Notes under the pieces: generated by a model
What the model was told of the DNA's origin: nothing
The model's database searches: none
What the model saw: only the letters and a program-made list of their open reading frames with translations
DNA from: Opitutaceae bacterium
Lineage (GTDB): Bacteria > Verrucomicrobiota > Verrucomicrobiia > Opitutales > Opitutaceae
Direction of reading: 5' to 3'
DNA length: 19,121 nucleotides
NCBI GenBank assembly: GCA_031272375.1
Contig: JAISTY010000101.1
Location: 1 to 19,121 of the forward strand
Part shown: in pieces, positions 1-16,999 of the stretch
Layout: each line of letters starts with the position of its first letter
How positions within the stretch are numbered: the stretch's first letter is position 1
Translations under genes and position numbers: made by a program

Positions 1-839
1 TTTTGAAGGACGACAAAGCGCGCGCGCTTCAACCCCCGGTCGGCGGCGCCAAGGTTGTCCACAAGCCGCCGCTGGATGCGGTGCGCCAGGAGGATGTTCC
101 AGTCGTCGTTCAGATTGCCGGGATGCGCGAAGGCGTCGCCCTTCTGCGGCTTGTCGTAGCGCGTCGAACGCTGGTTGCGCGGCGTCATCGAGTAGGTTTC
201 GACGCCGCTGACACCCGCGGAGGCGGTGGCGTTGAAATGGAGGCTGACAAAGAGGTCGGCGCGGACGCGGGACGCCAGCTCCGCGCGGCGTTCGAGGGCG
301 ACGGTGTCGTCGGCGGAGCGCGTGAGGCGGACGCGGTAGCCGAGGGCGGAGAGTTTTTTGGCGACGACGCGGGCGAGGGCGAGGGTCTGCGCCTTCTCCT
401 GGATTTTGAGGGCGGCGTTCAGCGCGCCGGGGTCGGAGCCGCCGTGTCCAGGGTCTATGACGATGAGGCGCGGGCGGACGCCGGGGCGCGGGCTGAGCAG
501 GGGCGCGACGCGCTTTCCGACCTCGCCGCGGCTGACATAGACGGCGCCGTTGCGGAGGAGAACGGGTTCGCCGAGGAAGACGGAAAGCCCGTCGAGTTTG
601 CCCTCGCGCTTGTCCACAACGAGGTCGAAGCGGCGCCCGTTGCCCGCGAGCCGGAGGGTTTTGTTCACGGCGAGCCAGCCGGGTTTCAGACCGAAGCGTT
701 CGACGGCGGCGCCGGCCTCGATGTAGTCAACGCCGTTGAAGCGGACGCCGACGGGGACCGTTTTGACGGCGCCCTTGGGCGGAGGCGTGGCGGCGGGACA
801 AGCCGCCGCCAGCGCGAGAAGGAGGACAAGCCGCCGCAT
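1..839 (-). CDS. N-acetylmuramoyl-L-alanine amidase (Amidase_3), partial at left edge
   Basis: Periplasmic zinc amidase that cleaves the bond between N-acetylmuramic acid and the stem peptide during cell separation and wall turnover. The first 279 codons are present; the 3' end lies outside the window. The ATG at 837-839 starts a signal peptide (MRRLVLLLALAAACPAA); a lipoprotein reading at the Cys is possible but the lipobox is poor. A linker domain of about 120 residues precedes the catalytic domain. The motif IDPGHGGSDPGA carries zinc ligand His132, Glu148 follows in KIQEKAQT, and SLHFNA carries His201. The second catalytic Glu expected near the C-terminus is off the window. The gene starts 24 bases after infC, so the two are probably co-transcribed, and a GGAG nine bases before the ATG is a plausible ribosome binding site. 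Two copies of the dispersed GACAAGCCGC repeat lie inside the signal-peptide codons. Family assignment is firm; the AmiA/B/C subtype is not determined. Confidence 0.9.
   Translation of the reverse strand, partial: MRRLVLLLALAAACPAATPPPKGAVKTVPVGVRFNGVDYIEAGAAVERFGLKPGWLAVNKTLRLAGNGRRFDLVVDKREGKLDGLSVFLGEPVLLRNGAVYVSRGEVGKRVAPLLSPRPGVRPRLIVIDPGHGGSDPGALNAALKIQEKAQTLALARVVAKKLSALGYRVRLTRSADDTVALERRAELASRVRADLFVSLHFNATASAGVSGVETYSMTPRNQRSTRYDKPQKGDAFAHPGNLNDDWNILLAHRIQRRLVDNLGAADRGLKRARFVVLQ
797..837 (+). repeat. Two copies of dispersed motif GACAAGCCGCCGCC
   Basis: A perfect copy at 797-810 and a copy with one final mismatch at 825-837/838. Both lie inside the amidase signal-peptide codons, the second overlapping its start codon. 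On the minus strand they encode AAACP and RRLV. Confidence 0.9.
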
Positions 840-863
840 TTTCGGGACTCCGGCGCGGGGGCG

Positions 864-1538
864 TCACTCGCCGGCGTCGGAGGACGCGGCGGGTTCCGCG
901 GGGTGTCCGTCGGGAGGCGGCGGCTTGTCGCCGGGGGCGGGGGCGAGTCGGCGTTTGCGTTTTCCGGCGGGCAGCGGGGTGAGCATGACGTTGATCTGCT
1001 TGCCCATCAGACGCGGCTGGTTGTCGGGGGCGCCCATGCCGGCCAGCTCCGCGAGCGCCTTGGTCATGATTTCAAAGCCGATTTCGGTGTGCGCCATCTC
1101 GCGGCCGCGGAATTTGACGCGCAATTTCACCTTGCTGCCCTCGTCGAGGAACTCCTCCGCGTGGCGGATTTTGGTGGCGAAGTCGCCGTCGGCGATGCGC
1201 GGGGTGAACTCGATTTCCTTGATGCGCGTGGCGGTGGCCTTGGCGTGGGAGGTGCGTTTCTGCTCCTCGTAGATGTATTTGCCGAAGTCCATGATGCGGC
1301 AGACGGGCGGGGTGGCGTTCGCGGAGATTTCGACGAGGTCGAGGTTGAACTGCCGCGCGAGGGCGAGGGCGCGGCCCGTCGGCAGGATGCCGATCTGCTT
1401 GCCCTCTGGGCTGATGACGCGGATTTCCGGGCAGCGGATGCGGTCGTTGCGGCGGATGTGCGCGTAAGGGTCGGCGTTGCGACGGTGGAAGGGGCGTTTG
1501 CCGGCGTTGCCGGGTCTGGGAGGATAAGGACTGGCCAT
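864..1538 (-). CDS. infC: Translation initiation factor IF-3
   Basis: IF-3 binds the 30S subunit, keeps it apart from 50S and checks start-codon/initiator-tRNA pairing. The protein is 224 aa. The N-domain shows RRNDRIRCPEIRVISPEGKQ, then the family signature DLVEISANATPPVCRIMDFG followed by KYIYEEQKR. The C-domain has KIRHAEEFLDEGSKVKLRVKF, RGREMAHTEIG and the closing LMGKQINVMLTP. I chose the ATG at 1536-1538 (MASPYPPRPG); an ATG further upstream at 1601 would add 21 unconserved residues. No Shine-Dalgarno is seen before the chosen start, and I see no AUU start of the kind known from enterobacterial infC. After the conserved end there is an extra, low-complexity tail of about 35 residues containing GDKPPPPDG, encoded by a perfect copy of the dispersed 14-base repeat at 916-929. 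It probably forms an operon with the amidase downstream; rpmI and rplT, the common partners, are not beside it. Confidence 0.96.
   Translation of the reverse strand: MASPYPPRPGNAGKRPFHRRNADPYAHIRRNDRIRCPEIRVISPEGKQIGILPTGRALALARQFNLDLVEISANATPPVCRIMDFGKYIYEEQKRTSHAKATATRIKEIEFTPRIADGDFATKIRHAEEFLDEGSKVKLRVKFRGREMAHTEIGFEIMTKALAELAGMGAPDNQPRLMGKQINVMLTPLPAGKRKRRLAPAPGDKPPPPDGHPAEPAASSDAGE
916..929 (-). repeat. Dispersed motif GGCGGCGGCTTGTC, perfect copy
   Basis: Reverse-complement perfect copy inside infC, encoding DKPPP in the extra C-terminal tail of IF-3. Confidence 0.9.
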
Positions 1539-1619
1539 CAATAAGGTGGTTTTGCGTGAAACGTCCGCGAATTCCGCGAAGCGCGCGTGGGAAGACAACA
1601 ACGAAGTGCGGCGGGCGGC

Positions 1620-1898
1620 TCACGCCAACGCAAGCGGGGCCACTTGGGCGACGGGGATGTGCGCGATGGTGAGTTCGCGCAGGTCCGGATCCTCGGCAAA
1701 ATGTTCCTCGACGGCGCGGGGTTCCGGTAATGGTTCCCCATCGGCGACAAGGGCGGCCAGATGTTCATGCAAGGCGTCCCGCATCGTTGAAAGTGCCTCG
1801 TCAATCGTCCCGCCGGTCGCAATGCATCCGGGAACATCGGGCGAAAACGCCGAGTAGTTCCGCTTCCCTTGCTCAATTACAATTGTGTAGCTGCTCAT
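1620..1898 (-). CDS. hicB: HicB-family antitoxin
   Basis: Small 92-aa protein of the HicB_lk_antitox family, which neutralises HicA mRNA-interferase toxins. The N-terminal half is typical: YTIVIEQGKRNYSAFSPDVPG, then CIATGGTIDEALSTMRDALH, a partially degraded RNase-H-like fold. The C-terminal region (about residues 55-92) has no clear helix-turn-helix or ribbon-helix-helix DNA-binding module, so autoregulation cannot be inferred from it. AGGTG four bases before the ATG is one of the few convincing ribosome binding sites in the window. Immediately upstream on the same strand, 27 bases away, lies a hicA-like reading frame without a start codon, so this looks like an antitoxin that has lost its working toxin. 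The local DNA is more AT-rich than its neighbours, which fits acquisition by transfer. Confidence 0.85.
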   Translation of the reverse strand: MSSYTIVIEQGKRNYSAFSPDVPGCIATGGTIDEALSTMRDALHEHLAALVADGEPLPEPRAVEEHFAEDPDLRELTIAHIPVAQVAPLALA

Positions 1899-1925
1899 GT
1901 TTCACCTGTTATTCACTGTTAATCA

Positions 1926-2147: not shown

Positions 2148-2244
2148 TCAATTGCATCCCTTCCCCCTTTTTGCCCGCGTGGGCGACATTTCCTTTGAAC
2201 CTCCGGCGGGGTTTGTGTCCCTTGCGCGGTTTCCTTCCCCTCCG

Positions 2245-3576
2245 ATGCGCCGCCTCGCCACAGCCTTTTTTCTGATTTTCACCGTCGCGCTGGCGGCGCA
2301 GGTCATCCCGCCCGCGCAGCCCATCCGCGGCGCCGTCCCCGTTTCGCGCGACAAGCCGCCGCCGCGTCCGCCGTCCGTTGCCCCCGCGCCCGCCGCGTTC
2401 GCGCTGGGCGTGGACGTTCTCCAGGGAAACGGCTTCCGGCAGCTTGCCGGCAAACGCGTCGGGCTGCTCACCCATCCCGCCGGGGTCAACTCCGCCGGGG
2501 TCTCCACGCTCGACCTGCTGCGGCGCGCGCCCGGCGTGACGCTTGTCCGCCTTTTCGCCCCGGAGCACGGCCTCAACAACGAGCATCCGGCCTCCAAAAA
2601 CTTTGGCGACCACACCGACCCGCGCACCGGTCTGCGCGTCCATTCATTGCACGGCAAAAACCGCCGCCCGACCGGGGAGCAGCTCGCCGGCCTGGACGCC
2701 CTCGTCGTTGATCTGCAGGACATCGGCGTCCGCTCCTACACTTACAGCGTGACGCTCCGCAACGCGCTCGAGGCGTGTTTCGCGCACGGCGTCGCGGTGG
2801 TGGTTCTCGACCGCCCCAACCCGCTCGGCGGCCTCAAGGTCTCCGGGCCGCTGCTCGACCGCGAGCTGCGCTCGGGCGTCGGCGCCTTTCGCGTCCCCTA
2901 CGTCCACGGTCTCACGCTGGGCGAGCTGGCGCGCATGGCGCTCGGCGAGCCGGGCTTTCTTGAGATTTCGGAGGCAGCGCGCCGCGCCGCCCGCCTCACG
3001 GTCGTCCCCATGCGGGGTTGGAGGCGTTCGCTGACGTGGCCGGAGCTGCCGCTGACCTACACGCCGACCTCGCCGATGATACGGACGCCCAACGACGCCC
3101 TCGCCTACGCCATGCTCGGGCTGGGGTGCATGGACACCGGCTTCCGCTATGGCGTCCGCGGGGAGCGCCCGTTTTTCAGCCTCACGCACACCAGGGCCGC
3201 GCCCGCGCGCGTCGTCGCCGACCTCAACGCCCTTGGCATCGCGGGGCTGCGTTTCGCGAAGGTCACCGAGCGCAATCCGCGCACGGGCAAAACCCGCGAG
3301 GCCGCCGGCATGGAGATCACGGATTGGGACGCGCTCGATTTGACGGAGGTCGGCTTCCAATTGATGCGGCTCGCCTGCCGCTACAATCCGCCGAACCCCT
3401 TCGCGAAACTCGCGCCGGAAAAGATCCGCTCCTTCAACATCCACGCCGGCAGCGCGGAGTGGTGGGCCGCGCTCGCCCGCGACGGCGCCGCCGCGGATCT
3501 GCCGGCGTTCCTCCGCCAGTGGCGCCGCGACGCCGGGGACTTCCAGTCCCGCTCCCGCGCCTACTGGCTTTACTGA
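2245..3576 (+). CDS. Secreted exo-beta-N-acetylmuramidase, NamZ/DUF1343 family (GH171-like)
   Basis: The family (DUF1343; NamZ/YbbC of Bacillus) removes terminal N-acetylmuramic acid from peptidoglycan fragments, a step in wall recycling. The 443-aa protein starts at the ATG at 2245, chosen because it begins a clean signal peptide (MRRLATAFFLIFTVALAAQ); the longer open frame upstream overlaps the hicA remnant and is not conserved-looking. A proline-rich linker with DKPPPRPP follows. The Rossmann-like N-domain shows GKRVGLLTHPAGVNSAG, LFAPEHGLNNE with the family PEHG (Glu107-His108), VDLQDIGVRSYTYS, VVLDRPNPLGG and PYVHGLTLGELA. The C-terminal domain is divergent: where relatives usually carry an EGTN..S.GRGT..PFE block this one reads MDTGFRYGVRGERPFF. 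No Shine-Dalgarno is seen. It converges with the GH127 gene, 16 bases apart. Export and family are clear; exact substrate is inferred. Confidence 0.9.
   Translation: MRRLATAFFLIFTVALAAQVIPPAQPIRGAVPVSRDKPPPRPPSVAPAPAAFALGVDVLQGNGFRQLAGKRVGLLTHPAGVNSAGVSTLDLLRRAPGVTLVRLFAPEHGLNNEHPASKNFGDHTDPRTGLRVHSLHGKNRRPTGEQLAGLDALVVDLQDIGVRSYTYSVTLRNALEACFAHGVAVVVLDRPNPLGGLKVSGPLLDRELRSGVGAFRVPYVHGLTLGELARMALGEPGFLEISEAARRAARLTVVPMRGWRRSLTWPELPLTYTPTSPMIRTPNDALAYAMLGLGCMDTGFRYGVRGERPFFSLTHTRAAPARVVADLNALGIAGLRFAKVTERNPRTGKTREAAGMEITDWDALDLTEVGFQLMRLACRYNPPNPFAKLAPEKIRSFNIHAGSAEWWAALARDGAAADLPAFLRQWRRDAGDFQSRSRAYWLY
2350..2363 (+). repeat. Dispersed motif GACAAGCCGCCGCC, perfect copy
   Basis: Perfect copy encoding DKPPP in the linker between the NamZ signal peptide and its enzymatic domain. 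Confidence 0.9.
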
Positions 3577-3588
3577 CAAGCCGCCGCC
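3575..3588 (+). repeat. Dispersed motif GACAAGCCGCCGCC, perfect copy at convergent gene ends
   Basis: Perfect copy that overlaps the last two bases of the NamZ stop codon and fills most of the 16-base gap to the GH127 stop. Confidence 0.9.
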
Positions 3589-3592
3589 GCCG

Positions 3593-5629
3593 TCATTTCA
3601 CCTCCGGAAACTGGGAGATGCGGAGGGTCGTGCAGCCGTAGGGAATCAGCGTGATTTCGCGCTCGGGCGGCTTTTTCGCGTAAAGCGGCTGGTTGTGGCG
3701 GGCGGTCCACGGAAGCGGACCGGCGCTTTCGTTGTAGAGTTTCCAGTGCGGGACCTCCCGGGCGCGCGTCCTGATGCGGACGGGCGCGTTCTCCGGGTTC
3801 CAGAAAAAGGGCGCGCGCGCCTTCTCCGCGTCCACCTCGACGGTGAAGCGTCCGGCGGCGGCTTGTTTGCCGCCCTTGACGAGGGCGAAGTTCCACGGGT
3901 CGGGCGAGGTGACCTCGTAATAGGCGTCCCCGAAGCGGGCGCGCTCGTTTTCGGGGAACTCGCGGCGCGTCCATTCCTCGCGCATTTCGAGCGCGTAGAC
4001 GAGCGGGCCGCGCTCCACGGCGACCGAGTTTTCGCGCCAGGTGGAAAGGGTGACGCCCATGGGGAGCGTGAGATGGACAACGTCGCCGTCGCGCCATTCG
4101 CGGCGGATGACGGCGACGCCGCCGGCGGGGGCGGCGGTGACGGGGGAGCCGTTGACGGAGAGGGTGGCGTCCGGGCACCAGCCGGGGACGCGCAGGCGCA
4201 GCGGGAAGGTTGCCGGGGCGGGGTTGTCCGCGAGGGAGACGGCAAAACGGAGGGTGTCTTCCATCGGGTAGCAGGTGTCGGTGGTGATTTTGACGCGGCG
4301 TCCGCCGGCGACGTCGGCGGCGACCTCGGAGGGCGCGTAAAGGAGGGCGGCGAGGCCGCCGTCGGGCGTGGCGTGCCAGAGGCTTTGGGCGAGCTTGGGC
4401 CAGCCCTGGTGCATATTGGAGGCGCAGCAGGGGTAGCCGGAGAGGAGGCCGAAAACGAGGCTGGTGCCGGAGTTGCTGACGTCGAAGTTGCGGACGGCGC
4501 GGGTGACGCGGACCTGGTTGGCCTGCTGGAAGTATTGCTTGAGCGTGAAGTCGTCGGAGATCTGCGCGGGGAGGGCGTTGAAGGCGACGCGCTCGATGTG
4601 GTCGGCGAGGGCGGTGTCGCCGGTGATGGCGAGGAGGGTTTCGAGGGAGAACAGCAGCTCGACGGCGGAGCAGAGTTCGGAGCCTTGCGCGGGGTCGTTG
4701 CCGTGGAGGGCCTCGTCGCCGCCGAACATGCCCTGCGCCTGACCGTTGAAGCGGCGGAGGTCGGCGAGGCCGCGGCGGAGCGCGTCGAGGTATTCGGGCC
4801 GCGGGTCGCGCTGCCAATAGACGCCGGGTTCCTTGAGGCCCTGGGCGAGGTTGACGCAGTGGATCGAGCCGGGGCGCGCGAGGGCGTCGCCGTCGAGGAA
4901 CATCCGGGTGAAGTCGTGGCCCTGCTTGTGGAGGAGGTCGGCGAGTTCGAGGAGGAAGGGTTCGCCGGTGAGGTTGTAGAGCCAGAGGACGGCGGCGAGG
5001 TTGTCGCAGGCGCGGTAGGTCGCCCAGAAGGTCCAGTGGCCGAGCGGCTTTTGGGGCAGGGTGTCCAGTTGATAACGGAAATATTTCGACATGAACGCGG
5101 GGACGCGCGGGTCGCCGGTGGCGGAGTGGTGCTGCATGAGGATTTTCAGGACGACCATGCGGGGCCACCAGTCCTCCGCGTTGTCGCGCTGGAGGCCGGG
5201 TTCGCGCGGGTAATTTTTCCGCGGGCCGAAGGAGCCGTCGTCGCGCTGGCTGGCGAGCGCCCACTCGATCCAGGGGCGGGCCTTGGCGAGGAGCGCCTCG
5301 TCGCCGAGCAGGTGGGCGAGCGGGAGGAGACCGTCTATCCAGTAAGGCCCGCGCTCCCACTGGTCGCCGTCGCCGCCGAGCCAGCCGTTGCGCGGCCCCA
5401 TGACCTGCGGGTAGAGGGCGTCCATGCGGCCCGTGGCGCCGTCGCGCTGGCGCCGGAGCATTTCGAGCAGCCAGCCGCGGGGCTTTATGGCGCCGAGCGG
5501 CAGCTCGACATAGGCCTTGGGCGCGAGCGGGGCGCGGTTGTTGGCCGGCGGCTCGGCGGCAAAACCGCAAAGGGTCATCGCACAGAGGACGCAGAGGGGA
5601 AGGGCGGGCGTGGAGGGTTTCATTCTCAT
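3593..5629 (-). CDS. Exported GH127-family glycosidase (beta-L-arabinofuranosidase-like)
   Basis: Predicted glycoside hydrolase of family 127 (formerly DUF1680), an (alpha/alpha)6 barrel enzyme with a cysteine nucleophile held by zinc. The 678-aa protein begins [18 protein letters not shown], a signal peptide ending near [26 protein letters not shown] is the usual N-terminal block. The key residues are present: [12 protein letters not shown] gives Glu318 and Cys320, and [15 protein letters not shown] gives Cys401-Cys402. This matches the Glu, Cys and CysCys zinc/nucleophile set described for Bifidobacterium HypBA1, with similar spacing. A beta-rich C-terminal half includes [20 protein letters not shown] and [11 protein letters not shown]. 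The ATG at 5627-5629 is chosen; an ATG two codons later is equally possible and no ribosome binding site decides. The substrate is probably a plant or algal glycan, but some relatives (GH146 and others) act on different linkages. The signal-peptide DNA resembles an interspersed repeat. Confidence 0.9.
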
Positions 5630-6878: not shown

Positions 6879-8210
6879 GTGGATCACGTCTTCCAGGACA
6901 GCCTCTTCGACGACCCCGCCGGCGCCCCCGCGCCCGCGGACAAGCTGCCGCTGGCCGCCCGCATGCGCCCCCGCTCCCTCGCCGAAATCGCCGGCCAGGA
7001 CCACCTCGCCAGCCCCGGCGGCCTCCTCGCCCGCCTCATCCGCGCCAACACCTTCGGCAGCCTGATTTTTTACGGCCCCCCCGGCTGCGGCAAAACCAGC
7101 TTCGCCGAGGTCATCGCCCGCGAGACCCAAAGCCGCTTCGTCCGCCTCAACGCCGTCCTCTCCAACGTCGCCGAACTCCGCGAAATCCTCGCCGCCGCCA
7201 GACGCCGCCCCGAACGCCGCACCATCCTCTTCATAGACGAGCTCCACCGCTTCAACAAAGCCCAGCAGGACCTCCTCCTCCCCGACGTCGAAAACGGCGC
7301 CGTCCGCCTCGTCGGCGCCACCACCCACAACCCCGGCTTCTACGTCAACCCGCCCCTCCTCTCCCGCAGCCACCTCTTCCGCCTCGAACCCCTCTCGACG
7401 GACGCCGTCGCCGCCGTCCTCCGCCGCGCCTTGGAGGATCCGGAGCGCGGCCTCGGCCAACGCCGGCATTCCGCGGAGGACAACGTCCTCGCCTCCCTCG
7501 CCGCCCTCTGCGACGGCGACCTCCGCCGCGCCCTCAACGCCCTCGAGGTCATCGCCCTCTCCCTCCCCGAAAACGCCCCCCTCACCGAACGCGAGCTTGC
7601 CGGCTTCGCCCGCGAGCGCCGCATCCGCTACGACGCCGACGAGGACGAGCACTACGACACCATCTCCGCCTTCATCAAAAGCTGCCGCGGCGGCGACCCC
7701 GACGCCGCCCTCTACTGGCTCGCCAAGATGCTCGCCGGCGGCGAGGACCCCCGCTTCATCGCCCGCCGCCTCGTCATCCTCGCCAGCGAGGACATCGGCC
7801 TCGCCGACCCCTTCGCGCTCCCCCTCGCCGTCGCCGCCCACCACGCCGTTGACTTCGTCGGCCTGCCCGAGGCCGAGCTGACGCTCGCGCACGCCACCCT
7901 GCACATCGCCTGCGCCCCCAAGAGCAACTCCGCCACGCTCGCCCTCCACGAGGCCAAACGCCTCCTGCGCGACGAACCCGTCCAGGCGGTCCCGCTCTGG
8001 CTGCGCGACGCCCACACGAAGACGAACAAGGCCCTCGGCCACGGGAAGGACTACAAGTATTCGCACGAGTTTCCCGAGGGGATCTCCGGCCAGGCCTACC
8101 TCGAAAAGCCGCTCAAAATCTACACGCCCAAAACCAACGGCCTCGAAACCCGCGTCGCCGAGCGCCTCGCCCGCTGGGAGGCCCTGCGCCAAAAACAAAA
8201 GACCCCATGA
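6879..8210 (+). CDS. rarA: Replication-associated recombination protein A (RarA/MgsA AAA+ ATPase)
   Basis: RarA is a clamp-loader-like AAA+ ATPase that acts at stalled replication forks with SSB and the recombination machinery. From the GTG at 6879 the protein is 443 aa, the normal family length. It begins DHVFQDSLFDD, then PLAARMRPRSLAEIAGQDHL, the usual family opening. Walker A is GPPGCGKT (residues 66-73), Walker B ILFIDELHRF (116-125) and sensor 1 LVGATTHNP. The C-terminal part has RFIARRLVILASEDIGLADP, the PEAELTLAHATLHIACAPKSN block and YKYSHEFPEGISGQAYL, all characteristic. The open frame extends upstream through the mdh terminator, so those codons are not used. GTG is the first start after the terminator that gives the family N-terminus; no Shine-Dalgarno is seen. 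The N-terminal PADKLPLAARM includes a variant of the dispersed repeat (6939-6951). It converges with the DUF2937 gene 15 bases away. Confidence 0.95.
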   Translation: MDHVFQDSLFDDPAGAPAPADKLPLAARMRPRSLAEIAGQDHLASPGGLLARLIRANTFGSLIFYGPPGCGKTSFAEVIARETQSRFVRLNAVLSNVAELREILAAARRRPERRTILFIDELHRFNKAQQDLLLPDVENGAVRLVGATTHNPGFYVNPPLLSRSHLFRLEPLSTDAVAAVLRRALEDPERGLGQRRHSAEDNVLASLAALCDGDLRRALNALEVIALSLPENAPLTERELAGFARERRIRYDADEDEHYDTISAFIKSCRGGDPDAALYWLAKMLAGGEDPRFIARRLVILASEDIGLADPFALPLAVAAHHAVDFVGLPEAELTLAHATLHIACAPKSNSATLALHEAKRLLRDEPVQAVPLWLRDAHTKTNKALGHGKDYKYSHEFPEGISGQAYLEKPLKIYTPKTNGLETRVAERLARWEALRQKQKTP

Positions 8211-8225: not shown

Positions 8226-8912
8226 TCACACCGGCGGCAACTTGTCCGGCGGCGGCAACTTGTCCGCGGGCGCGGCGGGCGCCGGCAACTTGTCGGACGG
8301 CAGCTTGTCCGCGGGCGTTCCGGGAACGGACGGCGGCGGCTTGCCGCCCCCCACGCGCGCGAAGGGGTTCCGCGCGGCCTCCTTTTTCGCGCGGCGCCGG
8401 CGGAGCAGGGCCTTCAGCGGCCACCGGAAAAACAGATGGTAGGCGGCGTAGGCGGCGCACAGGCCGAGCGCGGCATAGACGGCGCCCTCCACCGTCGCGG
8501 GCACCGCCGGACGGTAGGCCTTGAGCGCGCCCCAGGCGATTTCCACGTCGAGGTTGGCGATGAAAACGAAGGGCCGCTTGAAAAGGGAGGCCGTCCGCAA
8601 CGCCTCCTCGGAGCCGGCGAGGGCGTCGGCGCGCGCGGCGACGCCGGCGAGCTTCCCGCCGAGGGCGGCGATGAGGCTGTCGTCGCTCCCGCTCAATTTG
8701 GCCGTGTAATCCGGGAGGGACGCGCCGGCTTCGGCCGCGGCCTGCTTGAACTGGGCGAGGATGCGGCGCGCCTCGTCAAGATGCCCGCCAAGGCGCTGGA
8801 GGTATTGCCGCATGAACTCCGGCGCCTGCGAGAACACGATGGCTCCGAGGACGCAAAAGGCGCGGTCGGCGAGGGTCTCGAGCTTGGTGGCGGCGGCGCG
8901 GGCGAGTTTCAT
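8226..8912 (-). CDS. DUF2937-like membrane protein with repeat-built DKLPP tail
   Basis: Protein of 228 aa whose N-terminal part fits DUF2937: a hydrophobic start (ADRAFCVLGAIVFSQAPEF) followed by MRQYLQRLGGHLDEARRIL and a predicted helical region that lies between two membrane segments. The second membrane segment is near residues 140-165 (VEGAVYAALGLCAAYAAYHL), followed by the basic LKALLRRRRAKKEAA, which should stay cytoplasmic. The function of DUF2937 is unknown. The last 45 or so residues are proline-rich and made of units PADKLPS, DKLPAPAAP, ADKLPPP and DKLPPV, encoded by tandem variants of the dispersed repeat (8233-8345). This tail is not part of DUF2937 as I know it. Another repeat variant, GACAGGCTGCCGCC, sits directly before the ATG. 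It is divergent from argJ, with 111 bases between. I am confident of the gene and moderately sure of the family. Confidence 0.83.
   Translation of the reverse strand: MKLARAAATKLETLADRAFCVLGAIVFSQAPEFMRQYLQRLGGHLDEARRILAQFKQAAAEAGASLPDYTAKLSGSDDSLIAALGGKLAGVAARADALAGSEEALRTASLFKRPFVFIANLDVEIAWGALKAYRPAVPATVEGAVYAALGLCAAYAAYHLFFRWPLKALLRRRRAKKEAARNPFARVGGGKPPPSVPGTPADKLPSDKLPAPAAPADKLPPPDKLPPV
8233..8345. repeat. Cluster of variant GGCGGC(A/G)(A/G)CTTGTC repeats
   Basis: Five close relatives of the dispersed motif sit within about 110 bases: GGCGGCAACTTGTC at 8233-8246 and 8251-8264, GCCGGCAACTTGTC at 8281-8294, ACGGCAGCTTGTC at 8297-8309 and GGCGGCGGCTTGCC at 8332-8345. On the minus strand they encode the DKLPP-type tail of the DUF2937 protein. 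Confidence 0.85.
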
Positions 8913-9023: not shown

Positions 9024-10346
9024 ATGGGCAGCACTTCCCTTTCCTTCGCGTCGAGAAACGAGCACCGCGCCTGGCTGGCGGCGAACGCCGCGCTGCCGGA
9101 GGGCTTCCGCGTCGCCACAACCCGCGTGGAGTTCACCCCGGTCGAGGCGCCGAAACCGTCGGCGATGACCCTCTCCCTGATCGCGCTGGACGAACCGACG
9201 GACAAATTCGCGGCGGTTTTCACCAAGAACGCCTTCCCCGGCGCGCCGGTGGTGGTGGGGCGGCGGCGGCTTGCCGCGGAGACACTCGGCGCGGTTCTGG
9301 TGAACACAAAGGTCTCCAATGTGTGCGCGCCGGGCGGCGTGGAGGCCTCGGAACGCCTGTGCGCGGAGACGGCGCGGCTGATCGGGCTGCCGTCGGGGGA
9401 GTCCGTGCTGCCAAGCTCCACGGGCGTCATCGGCTGGCGCCTGCCTGTTGACGCGATGGCGGCGGCGCTGCCGCGGCTCGCCGGCGGCTTGTCGCGCGGC
9501 TCCGCCCTGCCGCTCGCCGAGGGCATCGTCACCACCGACCTCTATCCGAAACTGCGGAGCGCGCCGGCCTGCGGCGGACGCGTCCTCGGCGTCGCCAAGG
9601 GCGCGGGCATGATCGAGCCGAACCTGGCGACCATGCTGGTTTTCATCCTGACGGACGTGGCGGTCCCGCGCGCGCTCCTGCGCGACCTGCTGCCGCGCGC
9701 CGTCAACGCGACCTTCAACCGCATCAGCATAGACAGCGACACGAGCACGTCGGACACGGTCGCGCTGCTGTCGTCGGGCAAAGCACCGTTTTCGGAGGGG
9801 AAAAACGCCGGCGAATTCGAGGCGGCGCTGCGGCGGGTGTGCGGCGACCTGGCGGAGGACGTTGTCCGCAACGGCGAGGGCGTCCGCCACGTCATCCGCG
9901 TCAGCGTGACGGGCGCGACGGACGACGCGGCGGCGGTCGCCCTGGGAAAGGCCGTCGTGAACGCGCCGCTGTTCAAATGCGCGGTCGCGGGGAACGACGC
10001 CAACGTCGGGCGGCTCGTGCAGGCCATCGGCAAATGCGCGGGCGCGGCGGGGCTGGACGTGTCGGGGCTGCGGGCGTCGCTGGGGGGCGTGGAGATTTTC
10101 GCGGACGGCGAGTTCCGGCTGGACCGCGCGAAGGAGGAGGCGCTGGCGGCGCACCTGCGCGGGGCGGAGCTGTATGCGAGCGCGCCGGGGGCGGACGGCG
10201 TCTTCAGGCCGCCGGTGGACTTCCCGCGCCACGAGCGCCGTGTGGAGGCGGAGGTGTCGCTGGGCGCGGGGCCGGGCCGCGCCGTCGTGCTCGGCGGCGA
10301 CCTGACGCACGAATACGTGAGCGAGAACGCCGACTCCCGGAGCTGA
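9024..10346 (+). CDS. argJ: Bifunctional ornithine acetyltransferase / N-acetylglutamate synthase ArgJ
   Basis: Arginine biosynthesis enzyme that moves the acetyl group from N-acetylornithine to glutamate (acetyl cycle). It is made as a precursor that cleaves itself. The 440-aa protein carries the self-cleavage site in GAGMIEPNLATMLVFILTD, with Thr203 as the new N-terminal nucleophile, and the SSTGVIGWRLP oxyanion-hole motif. The beta chain shows NATFNRISIDSDTSTSDTV and AVAGNDANVGRLVQAIGK, and the end GGDLTHEYVSENADSRS is typical. The N-terminal chain is unusual: the common NSGNANA-type block is NTKVSNVCAPGGVEASERL. I chose the ATG at 9024 because AGGG lies about eight bases before it; an ATG at 8982 would add 14 unconserved residues. 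Whether it also makes N-acetylglutamate from acetyl-CoA cannot be told from sequence. A repeat copy at 9480-9493 encodes part of RLAGGLSRGS. Confidence 0.94.
   Translation: MGSTSLSFASRNEHRAWLAANAALPEGFRVATTRVEFTPVEAPKPSAMTLSLIALDEPTDKFAAVFTKNAFPGAPVVVGRRRLAAETLGAVLVNTKVSNVCAPGGVEASERLCAETARLIGLPSGESVLPSSTGVIGWRLPVDAMAAALPRLAGGLSRGSALPLAEGIVTTDLYPKLRSAPACGGRVLGVAKGAGMIEPNLATMLVFILTDVAVPRALLRDLLPRAVNATFNRISIDSDTSTSDTVALLSSGKAPFSEGKNAGEFEAALRRVCGDLAEDVVRNGEGVRHVIRVSVTGATDDAAAVALGKAVVNAPLFKCAVAGNDANVGRLVQAIGKCAGAAGLDVSGLRASLGGVEIFADGEFRLDRAKEEALAAHLRGAELYASAPGADGVFRPPVDFPRHERRVEAEVSLGAGPGRAVVLGGDLTHEYVSENADSRS
9480..9493 (-). repeat. Dispersed motif, 13 of 14 match, in argJ
   Basis: GCCGGCGGCTTGTC inside argJ, with an exact 10-base core at 9484-9493; it encodes AGGLS. 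Confidence 0.85.
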
Positions 10347-10360
10347 CGCGGCGGCTTGTC
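10347..10360 (-). repeat. Dispersed motif, 13 of 14 match, directly after argJ stop
   Basis: CGCGGCGGCTTGTC starts at the base after the argJ stop codon, with an exact 10-base core at 10351-10360. It is intergenic, before the HAD gene. Confidence 0.85.
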
Positions 10361-11475: not shown

Positions 11476-11509
11476 CCGCGCCCCGGAAATCCGGGCGGCG
11501 CGGGCTTTT
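11476..11509 (+). terminator. Probable terminator between convergent genes
   Basis: CCGCGCC (11476-11482) pairs with GGCGCGG (11497-11503), and inside it CCGG pairs with CCGG around an AAAT loop, with a two-base GC bulge. A short T run (GCTTTT) follows on the plus strand. The weak T run lowers confidence. It lies between the ends of the small hypothetical gene and prmC and could serve both. Confidence 0.6.
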
Positions 11510-11517
11510 GAGGGAAA

Positions 11518-12366
11518 CTACCGCCGCGCGAACACAAACCGCGGGCGCCCCGCGAGGTCCTCGCGGCACTCCACCCTTGAAAATCCCGCCGCCTTCGCCG
11601 CCGCCTCCAGGGTGGCGTGCTGCGCGACGCCCGTCTCCAGCGCCAGCAGCCCGCCCTCCGTTAAAAACCCCCCCGCGCCGGCGATGATTTTTTTCAAGTC
11701 CGCGCACCCTCCGTCCCCCGACACCAGCGCCGCCGCCGGCTCGAACTCCCGCACCTCCGGCTCCGCCTCCGCCAGCTCCCGCTCCGTCAGGTAGGGCGGA
11801 TTCGCCGCGATCAGGTCGAACCGCCCCCAGTCCGCCCCCTCCGAAAACCAGTCCGACTTCGCGAAACGCACCCGCTCCGCCAGCCCCAGCGCCGCCGCGT
11901 TCTCCGCCGCCAGAGCCAGCGCCCCGTCGCTCGCGTCCGCCGCCACCACCTCCGCGTTTGGAAACGCCGCCGCCAGCGCCAGCGCCACGCAGCCCGTCCC
12001 CGTTCCCAGATCCAGAATCCGCGACGGCGCCTTGTCGCCCAGCCGCTCCCGCGTCAGCTCGACCAGGTATTCGGTCTCCGGCCTCGGCGCCAGCGCGCGC
12101 CGGTCCGTTTTCAGCCGCAACCCGCACCACTCCGTCCACCCCGTCACATATTGCAGCGGCTCCCGCTGTCCGCGCCGCCGCAGCAACGGCCGCATCCGCG
12201 CCAGCTCCGCCTCCGTCAGCTCCCGCTCGAACTGCAGATACAACTGCATCCGCCCCAGCCCGAGCGCGTGCCCCGCCAGCAGCTCCGCGTTCAACCGCGC
12301 CGGCTCCACGCCCCGCGCCGCCAGAAAATCCGCGCTCTTCCGCAATATCTCCAAAAGCGAAGCCAT
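11518..12366 (-). CDS. prmC: Peptide chain release factor N5-glutamine methyltransferase
   Basis: SAM-dependent enzyme that methylates the Gln of the GGQ motif in release factors RF1 and RF2, increasing termination efficiency. At 282 aa it has normal family length. The N-terminal helical domain reads SLLEILRKSADFLAARGVEP with ARLNAELLAGHALGLGRMQLYL, then REPLQYVTGWTEWCGL and APRPETEYLVEL, all typical of PrmC/HemK. The SAM loop is ILDLGTGTGCVALALA, and the catalytic NPPY motif is at residues 189-192 (DLIAANPPYLTERE), followed by FEPAAALVSGDGG. I chose the ATG at 12364-12366 (MASLLEI); an upstream in-frame ATG would add 13 residues. prfA, its usual neighbour, is not beside it. It is divergent from nuoI with a 111-base intergenic region holding short repeats. 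Confidence 0.95.
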   Translation of the reverse strand: MASLLEILRKSADFLAARGVEPARLNAELLAGHALGLGRMQLYLQFERELTEAELARMRPLLRRRGQREPLQYVTGWTEWCGLRLKTDRRALAPRPETEYLVELTRERLGDKAPSRILDLGTGTGCVALALAAAFPNAEVVAADASDGALALAAENAAALGLAERVRFAKSDWFSEGADWGRFDLIAANPPYLTERELAEAEPEVREFEPAAALVSGDGGCADLKKIIAGAGGFLTEGGLLALETGVAQHATLEAAAKAAGFSRVECREDLAGRPRFVFARR

Positions 12367-12477: not shown

Positions 12478-13095
12478 ATGCTCGGCTCCGGAATACTCAA
12501 AGGCCTCCTCGTCACCGCCCGCAACTTTGTCGGCAGCTTCCACGATCGCGAACGCCTCCCCACCGTCCAATACCCGGAGGAACGCGCGCCCGTCGGCGAG
12601 GCCTTCCGCACATTCCCCTTCCTTGTCAGCGACTGCCCCGCCGACGCCGACGCCTCCGCCCGCCTCGCCGGCCTCCGTGGCGTCGCCTGCCAGATTTGCG
12701 AGCGCAACTGCCCCCCGCGCTGCATCCACATTGAAAAATCCAAGGACAAGAAACCCGACGCCGCCGGCAAACCCCAGCTCTACCCCGCGGTCTTCGAGAT
12801 AGACATCTCCGTCTGCATGGGTTGCCAGATCTGCGTCGAGGTCTGCCCCTTTGACTCCATCAAAATGGACAAAGTCTTCGAGATCGCCGTCCCCCGCCGC
12901 TCCCCCGAACTCCTCCTCGACCGCGACCGCCTCTCCAAGCCCAACGCCTACTACCGCCGCATCCGCCCCTCCGAGGCCGCCGCCGTTGACGCCGCCCGCG
13001 CCGCCGAGCAGGCCGCCGCCAAAGCCAGGGCCGATGCCGCCGCCAAAGCCGCCGCCGCCCGGCAAGCCGCCGCCGCGACGCCCCCCGCCGCCTGA
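12478..13095 (+). CDS. nuoI: NADH-quinone oxidoreductase subunit I (first cluster-1 Cys replaced by Gly)
   Basis: Peripheral complex I subunit that carries clusters N6a and N6b and passes electrons to NuoB. From the ATG at 12478 the protein is 205 aa. It begins LGSGILKGLLVTARNFVG, then TVQYPEERAPVG. The second ferredoxin motif is complete: CMGCQICVEVCPFDSIKMD, with Cys113, 116, 119 and 123. The first reads RGVACQICERNCPPRCIHI: Cys71, 74 and 78 are present, but the position of the first Cys, residue 68, is Gly (GGC at 12679-12681), one base from TGC. An extra Cys82 follows. The C-terminus is an Ala-rich tail (about 30 residues) with GGCAAGCCGCCGCC, a variant repeat, at 13061-13074. It is the first gene of the nuoI-H-J-K run. 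The upstream open frame overlaps prmC and is not coding. No Shine-Dalgarno is seen. Confidence 0.93.
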   Translation: MLGSGILKGLLVTARNFVGSFHDRERLPTVQYPEERAPVGEAFRTFPFLVSDCPADADASARLAGLRGVACQICERNCPPRCIHIEKSKDKKPDAAGKPQLYPAVFEIDISVCMGCQICVEVCPFDSIKMDKVFEIAVPRRSPELLLDRDRLSKPNAYYRRIRPSEAAAVDAARAAEQAAAKARADAAAKAAAARQAAAATPPAA

Positions 13096-13124
13096 CCACC
13101 CGCGCGCAAACCCGTTTTCCCGCC

Positions 13125-14330
13125 ATGCCCGTCACACTCGAAACCTTCCCGCTCGCCCTCCGCGACTGGCTCTGCGCCTTCCTCCCGCAGGAGTTCCACT
13201 GGCTCCTCTCCGGCCTCCTCGTCATCATCGCCATCCTCACCGTCTTCGGCCTCGGCTTCGCCTTCATCACCGTCGCCGAGCGCAAGTTCCTCGGGCGTTT
13301 CCAAAACCGCATCGGCCCCAACCGCGTCGGCCCCTTCGGCCTCCTCCAGCCCTTCGCCGACGCCGTCAAGGCCCTCACCAAGGAGGACATTGTCCCCGCC
13401 ACCGCCGACAAGCTGCCGCACTTTCTCGCCCCCTGCGTCATCGTCTCCGGCGCGCTTCTCTGCTTCGCCGTCCTGCCCTACGGGCGGCACCTTGTCCCCG
13501 CCGACCTCGACGCGGGCCTGCTGTATTTCTTCGCCGCCGGCGCCTTCACCGAGCTGGCGGTTTTCATGGCCGGCTGGTCCAGCCACAACAAGTTCTCCCT
13601 CCTCGCCGGCATCCGCGCGCTCGCCCAGCTCGTCAGCTACGAGCTGCCCCTGCTCCTCGCCACCCTGCCCGCGGTCATGGCCGCCCGCTCCCTCAACCTC
13701 CAGACCATCGTCGGGTCCCAGTCCCCCGCCGCCGGACTCAAGGCCGGCTTCCTCCCCAACTGGCACCTTTTCTCCCCTTGGGGCGCCGCCGGATTCCTCA
13801 TTTTCCTCATCGCCGCCATCGCCGAGTCCAACCGCTCCCCCTTCGACCTGCCGGAGGGCGAGAGCGAAATCATCGCCGGGCACCTCACCGAGTATTCCGG
13901 CTTCAAATACGCCCTCTTTTTCATGGGCGAATACTTCGGTCTCATCGCCCTTTCCGGCTTCTGCGCGACCCTTTTTCTCGGCGGCTGGCAGGCGCCCTAC
14001 GCCGCCCTCGAGGTCATTCCCAGCTGGGTCTGGTTCGGTCTGAAGGTCGCCGCGCTCATCTTCACCTTCATCTGGATCCGCGCCACCTTCCTGCGCCTGC
14101 GCATGGACCAACTCATGCGCTTCTCCTGGAAATTCCTCCTGCCCCTCGCCCTCATCAACCTTGGCACCGCCGCCTTCTGGCTCCTCACCGCCCACTGGCA
14201 GGGCGCGTGGTGGATCGCCCTGCGCTGGTTCGCCGCCGCCGCCCTTGTCATCGCCCCCTATTCCATCCTTGGCCGCCGCCTTTTCCGCGGCCTTGGCGCC
14301 AGAACCTACGAATACGCGCCGAACAACTGA
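13125..14330 (+). CDS. nuoH: NADH-quinone oxidoreductase subunit H
   Basis: Membrane subunit that forms much of the quinone pocket at the junction of the two complex I arms. The protein is 401 aa with about eight or nine hydrophobic helices. Diagnostic blocks are TVAERKFLGRFQNRIGPNRV with GPFGLLQPFADAVKALTKED, then RALAQLVSYELPLLLA. AESNRSPFDLPEGESEI is the conserved loop with acidic residues near the quinone site, followed by AGHLTEYSGFKYALFFMGEY. The C-terminus has the usual LRLRMDQLMRFSWKFLLPL. It follows nuoI by 29 bases. Its ATG is preceded by CCCGCC rather than a ribosome binding site. Somewhat longer than E. coli NuoH (325 aa), mostly through an extended N-terminus and a loop around residues 190-215. 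Confidence 0.96.
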   Translation: MPVTLETFPLALRDWLCAFLPQEFHWLLSGLLVIIAILTVFGLGFAFITVAERKFLGRFQNRIGPNRVGPFGLLQPFADAVKALTKEDIVPATADKLPHFLAPCVIVSGALLCFAVLPYGRHLVPADLDAGLLYFFAAGAFTELAVFMAGWSSHNKFSLLAGIRALAQLVSYELPLLLATLPAVMAARSLNLQTIVGSQSPAAGLKAGFLPNWHLFSPWGAAGFLIFLIAAIAESNRSPFDLPEGESEIIAGHLTEYSGFKYALFFMGEYFGLIALSGFCATLFLGGWQAPYAALEVIPSWVWFGLKVAALIFTFIWIRATFLRLRMDQLMRFSWKFLLPLALINLGTAAFWLLTAHWQGAWWIALRWFAAAALVIAPYSILGRRLFRGLGARTYEYAPNN

Positions 14331-14352
14331 TTCCACAACGCCACCCGCCGCC

Positions 14353-14874
14353 ATGATACCACCGCCGCTCCCCGTCCTCGCCGCCATCGCCGCCGCCGCG
14401 CTCCTCACCGCCGCGCTCGCGATGATGCTCCGCAACCTCATCCACAGCGCCCTTCTCCTCGTCCTCACCTGGGTTTTCGTCGCCTTTTTCTACCTCTGGG
14501 CCGGCGCCCCCTTCCTCGCCTTCGCCCAGGTCGTCGTCTATGTCGGCGCCATCTCGATGGTCGTTCTGTTCGCCGTCCTTCTCACCCGCCGGCACGACCC
14601 CGCGAAACCCACCCGCCCCGCCTCGCTTGCCCGCGCCTGCTCCGCCCTCGCCGTCTCCGGCGGCGCCTTCGCCGTCCTCGCCTGGGCCGTCCTCCAATGG
14701 CGCCCAGTTCCCGGCAACCCGCCGCCCGCCGAACCCTCCGTCGCGACCCTTGGCGCGGCCCTTGCCGGCCCGCAGCTTCACGCGCTCCTCATCACTGGCG
14801 TCATCCTGACCGCCACGCTCATCGGCGCCGCCCTCATCGCCTCCCCCGTCGAAAAACCGGACTCCTCCCAATGA
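14353..14874 (+). CDS. nuoJ: NADH-quinone oxidoreductase subunit J
   Basis: Membrane-arm subunit that links the quinone module to the antiporter-like subunits. The 173-aa protein has five predicted hydrophobic helices. The family core is NLIHSALLLVLTWVFVAFFY, then APFLAFAQVVVYVGAISMVV and LFAVLLTRR, including the conserved VVYVGAI helix with its pi-bulge region. The last helix is LLITGVILTATLIGAALI. The ATG at 14353 is chosen since family similarity begins there; the upstream in-frame codons overlap nuoH. It follows nuoH by 22 bases, and its stop overlaps the start of nuoK (ATGA), so translation is probably coupled. Confidence 0.93.
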   Translation: MIPPPLPVLAAIAAAALLTAALAMMLRNLIHSALLLVLTWVFVAFFYLWAGAPFLAFAQVVVYVGAISMVVLFAVLLTRRHDPAKPTRPASLARACSALAVSGGAFAVLAWAVLQWRPVPGNPPPAEPSVATLGAALAGPQLHALLITGVILTATLIGAALIASPVEKPDSSQ

Positions 14875-15185: not shown

Positions 15186-15248
15186 CGTCCGCATTACCCG
15201 TTGAAAACATTTGAAAACCGCCGTGTCCGCGCAATCCTGCCGCCCGCT

Positions 15249-15782: not shown

Positions 15783-15809
15783 ACCGACGCGCGGCTCCCG
15801 CTCCTTCTC

Positions 15810-15839
15810 AACACGCGCCACGCGGCGCGTGTTTTTTTT
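15810..15839 (+). terminator. Rho-independent terminator after the surface-repeat gene
   Basis: AACACGCGCC (15810-15819) pairs with GGCGCGTGTT (15824-15833) around an ACGC loop and runs into eight T residues (15832-15839). The last T touches the stop codon of the convergent lpxB gene (15839-15841). Confidence 0.93.
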
Positions 15840-16999
15840 CACCCCATCCGCCGGAGGAGCCAGGCGGCCGGGGTGGAGCCGGTCGGGTGGCTTAAAATCC
15901 GCCGCAGGCGCGCGGCCTGCCCGCGGGTCTTTTCAAGGCGGGCGGGGTTGCGGAGGCAGTCGTCCAGCTCGCGCGCGAGCGCCTCCGGCGTTGCGGCGCC
16001 CTGCAGGTATTCGGGATACATCGGCTCGCCGAGGAGGATGTTGGTGATGCCGAGCCAGGGGATTTTCACGAGGCGGCGCCCCAGCTGGTAGGTGAGCGGG
16101 TTGGCGCGGTAGGCGATGGCTCCGGGAATGCCCGCAAGCGCGCAATGCAGTTGCATTGTGCCGCTGGAGGTCAGCACCGCGGAGGCCGCGACGGGTTCGC
16201 CGGCGGCTTGTCCGGCGGCGGCTTGTCGCAGACGGACGGTTTCCGGGAGGTCGCGGGCTTGGAGGATGCTTTTGATTTCGTCGGAGGGGTGGAGGACGAC
16301 TGCGTCGCGGGGGTTGGTTTTGACGGCCGCCTGGTAGCCGGCGAGGAGCGCGGGGAAAATGCGGGCGACGGCCTGCTTGCGGCTGCCGGGGAGGAGCAGG
16401 ACGGGGGCGTCGGGCGCGTGGCGGACAATGGGGCGGTGGGCGGGATCGAGAAAGGGGTGGCCGACAAATTCGACGGGGAGGGTGGTGTCGGCATAGCATT
16501 TCGGCTCGAACGGGAAAATGGTCGCGAGGGCGTCGAGGTCGCGCGCCATGGTGAAACGGCGCCGGGCCTTCCACGCCCAGATTTGCGGGGAGATGTAATA
16601 GAGGACGGCGATTTTGCCGCCGCCCTTGCGGGAGAGGCCGCGTTTGCGGAGTTCGGCGGCGAGGCGGAGGTTGAAGCCGGGGTAGTCCACAAGGCAGACG
16701 GCGCGCGGCCGGTGCGTCGTTATCCAGTCGAGGGTCGCGTTGAAAACCGCGCGGAAGTGGCGGATGTTTTTGAGGACTTCAACGAGGCCGACGACCGAGG
16801 TCGCGGTCATGTCGTGGAGCACCTGGACGCCCGCGCCGGCGAGGGCGGGGCCGCCGAGCGCGGCGATGGCGAGGCCGGGGGCGAGGGGTTTGAGCTGGCG
16901 GACGAGCGCGGCGGCCTGCTGGTCGCCGGAGTGCTCGCCGGCGACGAGGAGCAGGTCAACGGAGGCGTTTTGCGGAGGCGGAAGGCGGAACGGAGGCAT
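15839..16999 (-). CDS. lpxB: Lipid-A-disaccharide synthase
   Basis: GT19 glycosyltransferase that joins UDP-2,3-diacylglucosamine to lipid X, forming the lipid A disaccharide at the inner membrane. At 386 aa it is of normal length. Motifs in order: LLLVAGEHSGDQQAAALV, GLVEVLKNI, CLVDYPGFNLRLAAEL, LYYISPQIWAWKARR, FPFEPKCY, PVEFVGHPFLDPAHRP and LLLPGSRKQAVARIFPALL, then LTSSGTMQLHCALAGIPG. Before the last motif is an Ala-rich segment RQAAAGQAAGEPVAAS, encoded by two tandem repeat copies (16199-16227); relatives normally have a shorter stretch there. Start ATG at 16997-16999 follows CCCGCCGCC. It shows the organism makes lipid A. The oxidoreductase gene 122 bases upstream on the same strand may be functionally linked. 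The stop codon abuts the terminator of the convergent gene. Confidence 0.95.
   Translation of the reverse strand: MPPFRLPPPQNASVDLLLVAGEHSGDQQAAALVRQLKPLAPGLAIAALGGPALAGAGVQVLHDMTATSVVGLVEVLKNIRHFRAVFNATLDWITTHRPRAVCLVDYPGFNLRLAAELRKRGLSRKGGGKIAVLYYISPQIWAWKARRRFTMARDLDALATIFPFEPKCYADTTLPVEFVGHPFLDPAHRPIVRHAPDAPVLLLPGSRKQAVARIFPALLAGYQAAVKTNPRDAVVLHPSDEIKSILQARDLPETVRLRQAAAGQAAGEPVAASAVLTSSGTMQLHCALAGIPGAIAYRANPLTYQLGRRLVKIPWLGITNILLGEPMYPEYLQGAATPEALARELDDCLRNPARLEKTRGQAARLRRILSHPTGSTPAAWLLRRMG
16199..16227 (-). repeat. Tandem pair of dispersed motif inside lpxB
   Basis: GCCGGCGGCTTGTC at 16199-16212 is followed, after one base, by the perfect GGCGGCGGCTTGTC at 16214-16227. The in-frame pair encodes QAAAGQAAG before the donor-binding region of LpxB. 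Confidence 0.9.

Follow-up and report, generated by a model that had tools for sequence, protein, structure and literature searches.

A non-palindromic word of 12 letters, RRCAASBYGCCG, with the core GACAAGCYGCCG, is dispersed in extreme excess through the draft genome of an Opitutaceae bacterium and, with a probability that we put at about 0.6, serves as the DNA uptake sequence of this genome. Judging from the sequence, the best reading appears to be that the word is maintained by biased transformation. Under this scenario, a putative cell-surface receptor of a type IV pilus/ComEC uptake machine, perhaps a minor pilin, would bind the word, and this binding would lead the cell to favor DNA of its own kind. 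Copies newly arisen by mutation would be passed on as the fragments bearing them are imported in preference to others and recombined (molecular drive or uptake selection), and purifying selection would clear the word from conserved codons. Several hallmarks of uptake sequences are observed: the extreme excess, the presence on both strands without strong replichore polarity, the independence from protein and codon selection, and the permissive and intergenic placement.

To our knowledge, words that label DNA as self for uptake have been reported so far in two bacterial families only; a literature search for uptake sequences in connection with Verrucomicrobia, with subscription papers and preprints outside its scope, matched only a metagenome gene-transfer review. 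The odds seem even that naturally transforming bacteria have evolved recognition of self DNA a third time and independently, here within Verrucomicrobiota, using a distinct word (RRCAASBYGCCG) and a distinct putative receptor borne on the pilus. If true, this would be the third family with an uptake sequence and the first outside Proteobacteria, self-labeled transformation would have evolved independently once more, in another phylum, and the origin, spread, and change of uptake words would become comparable across unrelated receptors. Such a case would also suggest that word statistics alone may reveal further such systems in draft genomes.

Abundance and tolerance of the word

In the window, that is, the whole analyzed stretch of 19,121 nt, the 10-mer GACAAGCCGC occurs 10 times, compared to 0.16 copies expected by shuffling (sd 0.38), and at least 10 copies were reached in none of the 200 shuffles. 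The original prediction, which put the expectation at about 0.1 by hand and described the motif as far above chance, is thus borne out: the nine 10-mer sites that it listed are all real, a tenth is added here (Table 1), a recount returned the five exact 14-mers it had claimed, and the sequence variants that it named exist. With up to two mismatches allowed, the 14-mer has 24 matches in the window against 0.99 expected; the degenerate form RRCAASBYGCCG also has 24 matches, including 12 to the strict form GACAAGCYGCCG.

Table 1. Copies of the word in the window and their genic context
Feature	Position	Strand	Context
10-mer GACAAGCCGC, overlooked in the original prediction	146..155	-	outside the 12-letter word matches
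Strict copy GACAAGCCGCCG	797..808	+	antisense in amidase gene 3-839(-) (Amidase_3); signal-peptide-like region by eye
Strict copy	825..836	+	antisense, start of amidase gene 3-839(-) (MRRLV)
Strict copy	918..929	-	sense, C-terminal tail of IF-3 gene 864-1538(-) (IF3 domain)
Strict copy	2350..2361	+	sense (DKPPP), ahead of NamZ domain, gene 2245-3576(+)
Degenerate copy GGCAAGCTGCCG	2437..2448	-	antisense in NamZ gene 2245-3576(+)
Strict copy	3575..3586	+	begins in stop codon of gene 2245-3576, extends into intergenic gap
Degenerate copy AACAAGCCGCCG	3856..3867	-	in GH127-like gene 3593-5623(-)
Strict copy GACAAGCTGCCG	6939..6950	+	close to start of MgsA-type AAA gene 6879-8210(+)
Cluster of five copies (8235, 8253, 8283, 8298, 8334), one strict	8235..8345	-	C-terminal tail (DKLP runs) of DUF2937 gene 8226-8912(-)
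Degenerate copy GGCAAGCCGCCG	9264..9275	-	antisense in argJ 9024-10346(+) (ArgJ domain)
Strict copy	9482..9493	-	antisense in argJ 9024-10346(+)
Strict copy	10349..10360	-	intergenic, directly past argJ stop
Degenerate copy GACAAGGCGCCG	12025..12036	-	in PrmC-type methyltransferase gene 11518-12366(-)
Degenerate copy GGCAAGCCGCCG	13061..13072	+	close to end of 4Fe-4S protein gene 12478-13095(+)
Strict copy GACAAGCTGCCG	13407..13418	+	in NADH dehydrogenase subunit gene 13125-14330(+)
Degenerate copy GACAAGGTGCCG	13485..13496	-	antisense in NADH dehydrogenase subunit gene 13125-14330(+)
Degenerate copy GGCAACCCGCCG	14713..14724	+	in gene 14353-14874(+)
Two strict copies 15 bp apart (16201-16212, 16216-16227)	16201..16227	-	length-variable part of lpxB 15839-16999(-) (LpxB)
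Degenerate copy AGCAAGTCGCCG	18492..18503	-	antisense in gene 18424-19119(+)

Across the 1.46 Mb draft genome (67.6% complete), the strict 12-mer is present in 525 copies (271 and 254 on the two strands) versus 6 for the reversed word, the degenerate form in 1,353 copies versus 56 (27 + 29), and the 10-mer in 202 + 206 copies versus 9 + 6; these whole-genome counts are free of sample-choice bias. Other analyses drew on a sample of 103 readable pieces (102 contig stretches and the window; 707,540 of 1,461,740 bp, with 18 masked contigs excluded), in which the first 20 contigs were picked for the 10-mer and eight for uptake genes, so that densities may run slightly high; a smaller set of 67 readable pieces was used for the motif profile and the gene-end counts. 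The sample holds 723 degenerate copies, about 1 per kb. Comparison with a Markov model, suggested as a check in the original prediction, gave 74 times the order-4 expectation for the strict word in the sample, 7 times for words with one mismatch, and 0.9 times for those with two; for known uptake sequences, a fall in excess with mismatch load is likewise described (PMC1939737). The tolerance pattern is sharp, with near-invariant CAA and GCCG blocks flanking a tolerant center: five changes at positions 1, 2, 6, and 7 make up 358 of the 438 single mismatches, and only 50 hit CAA (positions 3-5) or GCCG (positions 9-12). The profile carries little information past about 14 bp, and less than 0.4 bit in the flanks. 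An argument from tandem copies that vary at tolerated positions alone was set aside: as the pattern permits no others, it is circular.

In the 870 other genomes of the phylum, the strict 12-mer reaches a maximum of 21 copies (G377, 6.5 Mb), and a comparable density of the word is confined to one genome among the 871 searched. No dialect was evident in relatives in a 10-mer scan which, with one locus per relative, is a weak test (loci of at least 8 kb among those of 80 relatives; best 60 sources). None of the relatives among these best 60 showed the combination of count and excess seen in the window (11 vs 0.33); scores slightly above that of the window came from a C homopolymer (L082) and from a 10-mer found five times (L097); the highest count, 12, was accompanied by expectations of 1.73 (L103) and 2.12 (L134).

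The main rival of the uptake reading is a highly iterated oligomer akin to cyanobacterial HIP1 (GCGATCGC), whereby the word would be made and kept by an intracellular process linked to methylation, repair, or recombination, without uptake; we consider this rather unlikely. Extremely abundant oligomers without an established uptake role do exist, HIP1, a short word with an extreme genome-wide excess, being a case in point, and in one model, mismatch repair creates and maintains its copies (PMC4390886). Moreover, the CAA and GCCG blocks with the tolerant center resemble a two-part protein contact, not necessarily that of an uptake receptor, and a non-polar recombination hotspot would be expected to lack strand bias too. 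However, HIP1 is a palindrome, is tied to palindrome-specific methyltransferases, and is common in cyanobacteria (PMC4390886), whereas the word described here is asymmetric and enriched in a single genome of those searched.

Overwriting, insertion, and local duplication

The alignable coding copies appear to have arisen mostly by overwriting at constant length and less often by insertion. An ungapped relative is available for 48 of the 59 aligned coding copies, and for 24 of the 25 strict ones; the remaining 11 of 59 compare to 26 of 301 control places. At the copies, insertions in this genome occur with a frequency of 0.147, about twice the 0.075 of the control places, and insertion relative to all aligned relatives is seen at 7 of the 59 sites (17 of 301 controls) and at 1 of the 25 strict ones. 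Insertion as the main origin of the copies is not supported by these alignments.

There are 86 neighbor pairs under 60 bp apart, 68 on the same strand and 18 on opposite strands, compared to 42 in total and about 21 opposite under random placement; hence, close inverted pairs show no enrichment in the sample. Such pairs, as terminators, are a common but non-defining companion of the neisserial DUS; here, terminators of this type are not enriched, and a few hairpin-like pairs do occur (e.g., L018 420-458). Close same-strand pairs, by contrast, are enriched, with a same:opposite ratio of 83:23 in the orientation analysis of pairs under 60 bp, and a spacing of exactly 15 bp accounts for 18 of 72 such close same-strand pairs. 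Same-strand clusters with a 15-bp peak fit local duplication, and tandem duplication of this kind apparently adds some of the copies.

The same-strand pairs also count in favor of a mini-repeat of about 15 bp (GACAASYYGCCGCCG) that proliferated through an unspecified copying mechanism or slippage, one of the three roles envisaged originally, which we nevertheless regard as improbable. The two clusters in the window, one of them in a length-variable part of lpxB, the doubled frequency of insertion, and an IS200-like Y1 transposase encoded elsewhere in the genome all speak for such an element. However, 563 of the 723 copies have no neighbor within 75 bp, the profile fades at about the length of the 14-mer, and the word lacks the hairpin form that Y1 enzymes mobilize. 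Given that most alignable coding copies overwrite codons without a change in length, a mini-repeat is disfavored as the main source.

Orientation and coding context

Chi and KOPS are short, asymmetric, genome-wide words, as is the one described here, and their orientation follows that of replication. A polar signal of this type for chromosome architecture or recombination, also among the roles first proposed, seems very improbable. Chi is a known over-represented short word (PMC4390886), and the strict copies lean with the gene strand (128:90), although an orientation preference is reported for uptake sequences as well (PMC2346458). Pairs more than 200 bp apart are, however, co-oriented about half the time, in successive distance bins extending to more than 8 kb: the same:opposite ratios are 16:20, 25:29, 51:41, 74:73, 61:54, and 26:31 for the strict form and 133:110, 161:156, 310:266, 407:405, 419:415, and 190:216 for the degenerate form. 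For the latter, the parallel fraction is 0.55 at 200-500 bp and 0.54 at 1-2 kb, and the majority strand of the contigs carries slightly more copies than expected (483 of 723; 463.5 expected, sd 7.8). A strong replichore skew is unlikely because it would clearly raise the same-strand share in every one of these bins. Past 200 bp, where a weak skew would need a closed genome to be seen, the copies show little coherence in orientation, and accordingly, a KOPS-like or strongly skewed Chi-like signal is disfavored.

A bias in codons or amino acids (runs of Ala or Asp-Lys-Pro) and an assembly artifact are already refuted as explanations: some copies do lie in Pro/Ala-rich stretches (DKPPP, DKLP, RQAAA), but there are 217 strict coding copies compared to 11.2 after synonymous-codon permutation (maximum 20 in 100 permutations), which confirms the earlier contention that protein selection does not explain them, the degenerate copies use all six frames (antisense 77/20/119, sense 141/179/22), the two commonest of which encode unrelated peptides (67-piece sample), the density is 1.7-1.8 times greater in noncoding than in coding DNA, and 102 of the 103 pieces carry at least one copy.

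With regard to placement, the original prediction emphasized gene ends and signal peptides, as well as places tolerant of insertion. The emphasis on gene ends and signal peptides finds no support in the sample: among the 145 strict coding copies of the 67 pieces, 10 are no more than 60 nt from a gene start, against 8.6 expected, and 6 are no more than 90 nt from a gene end, against 12.8 expected, so that no enrichment is seen (genes were called with our own script, not a standard gene finder; 613 genes, 86% coding). It does hold, though, that the copies are denser between genes and occupy less conserved protein spots, with residue identity over the 59 aligned sites of 0.38 in the motif, 0.50 in the flanks, and 0.55 at control places. 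In their low identity, these sites resemble the "permissive regions" reported to harbor DUS and USS (PMC2397512).

Uptake machinery and known uptake sequences

A search for com/pil genes, also called for originally, recovered ComEC-like, DprA, PilT, secretin, and pilin-like genes. In profile searches, a ComEC domain, DprA, PilT, and secretin (two proteins) scored above the cut-off, and the genome additionally encodes PilB/GspE-like and PilC/GspF-like proteins and four prepilin-type N-termini; ComEA (PF12836) had no match in the 67.6% complete draft. Because ComEC/Rec2, PilB, GspE, GspF, and PilC fall below the equivalog cut-offs and the single full-length pilin scanned is GspG, part of this pilus-like set may belong to type II secretion. 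Such machinery is widespread in control genomes (ComEC domain in 10 of 14, DprA family in 11 of 14), and therefore, its presence does not discriminate.

Among the observations that count against an uptake sequence are the lack of an inverted-pair excess, the tandem clusters, the lack of a dialect in relatives, and the lack of depletion in atypical genes. As to the last of these, when the sampled genes were divided into fifths by typicality, no depletion was found: copy density is lowest, 0.68 per kb, in the most typical fifth and 0.99 in the least typical. Rarity of the word in foreign DNA is likewise not evident, given that 102 of the 103 pieces carry it; the only piece without copies is a Y1-transposase contig (L037; 0 vs 5.7 expected, p = 0.003, uncorrected for the 103 pieces). 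In viral contigs, word pairs were found in 8 stretches, with just two copies apiece.

The Pasteurellaceae USS (AAGTGCGGT) has flanking AT tracts, whereas the flanks of the word described here carry little information. The two differ also in sequence and phylum, which are unrelated, and in that the uptake role is here a prediction; they share the many above-chance copies, the occurrence on both strands, and the permissive sites (for the sites, PMC2397512). From the Neisseriaceae DUS (GCCGTCTGAA), which has dialects (PMC3630211), the word is distinguished by its unrelated sequence, its occurrence in another phylum, a middle section that tolerates changes, a receptor that is here only putative, the lack of close inverted-pair enrichment and of dialects seen in relatives, and the presence of tandem clusters. 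Features shared with the DUS are as follows: both are words of 10-12 nt, non-palindromic, far above chance, on both strands, and lineage-specific, with permissive placement and a higher intergenic density, and their genomes encode type IV pilus-like and ComEC-like proteins.

Abundance and lineage of the word

The 10-mer core, GACAAGCCGC, occurs 10 times in the window against 0.16 expected, so the excess claimed in the original prediction is real, although its count of nine was one short; the 14-mer was found five times, as stated there. In the whole draft genome, of which the window is contig C20 (1,461,740 bp in 242 contigs, completeness 67.6%, contamination 0.23%), GACAAGCCGC is present in 408 copies against 15 of the reversed word, the strict 12-mer word, GACAAGCYGCCG, in 525 against 6, and the degenerate form, RRCAASBYGCCG, in 1,353 against 56, a density of about 1 per kb. 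A single piece among the 103 sampled (707,540 bp) carries no copy (0 against 5.7 expected; L037).

Among the genomes searched, the word is confined to its own lineage. GACAAGCYGCCG was counted in 870 other genomes of the phylum, none congeneric (251 of the family, the remainder from the order and phylum), and none exceeded 21 copies, the figure for the 6.5 Mb genome G377; 84 stretches from relatives (1.71 Mb) yielded 0 strict and 39 degenerate copies. The nearest matches listed for the window's LpxB come from drafts named Opitutus, Opitutaceae, and Rariglobus, at 68% identity, which places the genome in the Opitutaceae. In G377, a member of the same family, the 21 copies of GACAAGCYGCCG against 6 of the reversed word in the whole genome amount to a mild excess, far under that seen here.

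Tolerance and overwriting

Refinement of the word with an expectation-maximisation profile (478,887 bp) converged on about 490 sites, and no flank position carried more than 0.36 bit. The excess also withstands an order-4 Markov model (707,540 bp): exact GACAAGCYGCCG is found 279 times against 3.8 expected, one-mismatch copies 438 times against 61, and two-mismatch copies 497 times against 564. Most single mismatches (358 of 438) are one of five changes: G>A at position 1 (58), A>G at position 2 (52), G>C at position 6 (135), and C>T (69) or C>G (44) at position 7. Just 50 hit CAA (positions 3-5) or GCCG (9-12), and the eight commonest variants are each 9 to 100 times above expectation. This tolerance pattern would be expected if the word were bound by a protein that contacts DNA rigidly at two places and tolerates change in the centre.

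Protein and codon effects are ruled out as the cause of the excess, as originally predicted for protein selection: permuting synonymous codons within each of the 613 predicted genes (100 permutations) left 11.2 strict coding copies (maximum 20) against 217 observed, and 64.7 degenerate ones against 558, and the word is read in all six frames, the two rare ones giving Thr-Ser-Arg-like or Ala-Ala-Ala-Cys peptides. Densities within and outside genes are 0.36 and 0.61 per kb for strict copies, and 0.92 and 1.63 for degenerate copies. The word can shape a protein, as in the tail of the DUF2937 protein.

The word mostly overwrites rather than inserts. A relative in the fetched DNA was available for the proteins that hold 97 of the 558 coding copies, and alignments cover 59 copies; at least one ungapped relative exists at 48 of these 59 (strict, 24 of 25; control places, 275 of 301), and residue identity drops from 0.55 at control places to 0.50 in the flanks and 0.38 inside the word. 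This genome carries an insertion in 0.147 of the alignments at copies and in 0.075 at controls, a twofold difference that fits permissive spots of variable length and some duplication; the window's two lpxB copies lie in such a spot, with an insertion in 60 of 80 and 64 of 80 alignments.

Arrangement of copies

The word shows hardly any polarity. Strict copies are oriented with the gene more often than against it (128:90), but beyond 200 bp the two members of a strict pair point the same way in about half of cases, whatever the distance bin, and the parallel fraction of degenerate pairs is 0.55 at 200-500 bp, 0.54 at 1-2 kb, and at most 0.50 from 2 kb up; the per-contig strand majority is small (483 of 723 degenerate copies against 463.5 expected, sd 7.8). 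No neighbour lies within 75 bp of 563 of the 723. Pairs under 60 bp are mostly parallel (83:23), and 18 of 72 close same-strand pairs peak at an exact 15-bp spacing, which suggests that local duplication contributes copies. In one of two dense four-copy arrays, an inverted pair flanks an A-run and resembles a hairpin terminator.

Coordinates of features in the window and in fetched DNA stretches (L-numbers)
Stretch	Position	Strand	Feature
Window	1620-1898	-	HicB-like antitoxin ORF (PF15919) upstream of IF-3 gene, missed by gene finder
Window	8226-8912	-	DUF2937 protein, C-terminal tail with DKLP runs from word copies
L018	420-503		Dense four-copy array, between genes or at gene edge
L015	1036-1095		Dense four-copy array, between genes or at gene edge
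L037 (contig C38)	965-2008		IS200-like Y1 transposase gene (PF01797)

Probable uptake sequence versus iterated oligomer, and other repeats

Judged from sequence, RRCAASBYGCCG is probably a DNA uptake-type sequence (probability roughly 0.6). The features of the word match those of uptake sequences. The uptake sequences of Neisseriaceae (DUS) and Pasteurellaceae (USS) are reported to occupy permissive core-genome regions and to be strictly conserved (PMC2397512), and their excess to drop as mismatch load rises (PMC1939737). The Neisseria paper also argues that DUS arise via recombination, not point mutation alone (PMC2397512). The genome encodes a ComEC domain protein, DprA, PilT above the family cut-off, PilB/GspE-like and PilC/GspF-like proteins scoring under equivalog cut-offs, two secretins, and four prepilin-type N-termini; the one full-length pilin scanned is GspG, and some of these components could be parts of a type II secretion system. 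ComEA was not found in the 67.6% complete draft. Of 14 control genomes, 10 have the ComEC family and 11 the DprA family, so neither discriminates.

The leading alternative is an iterated oligomer that serves a function inside the cell, as with HIP1 of cyanobacteria. Several observations count against uptake: inverted close pairs are not enriched, the word forms tandem clusters, no depletion in foreign or atypical DNA was found, and no dialects were found in relatives, a weak test. No report of such uptake was found in the literature searched.

Other interspersed, more A+T-rich repeats occur in 479 kb of this genome, AGGGACAGGTTA in 20 copies, TTAACCACTAAT in 12, and words around TTGAACAGAAGATAAGAAG in 17-31; some exceed the word in observed/expected ratio, with far fewer copies (12 to 31).
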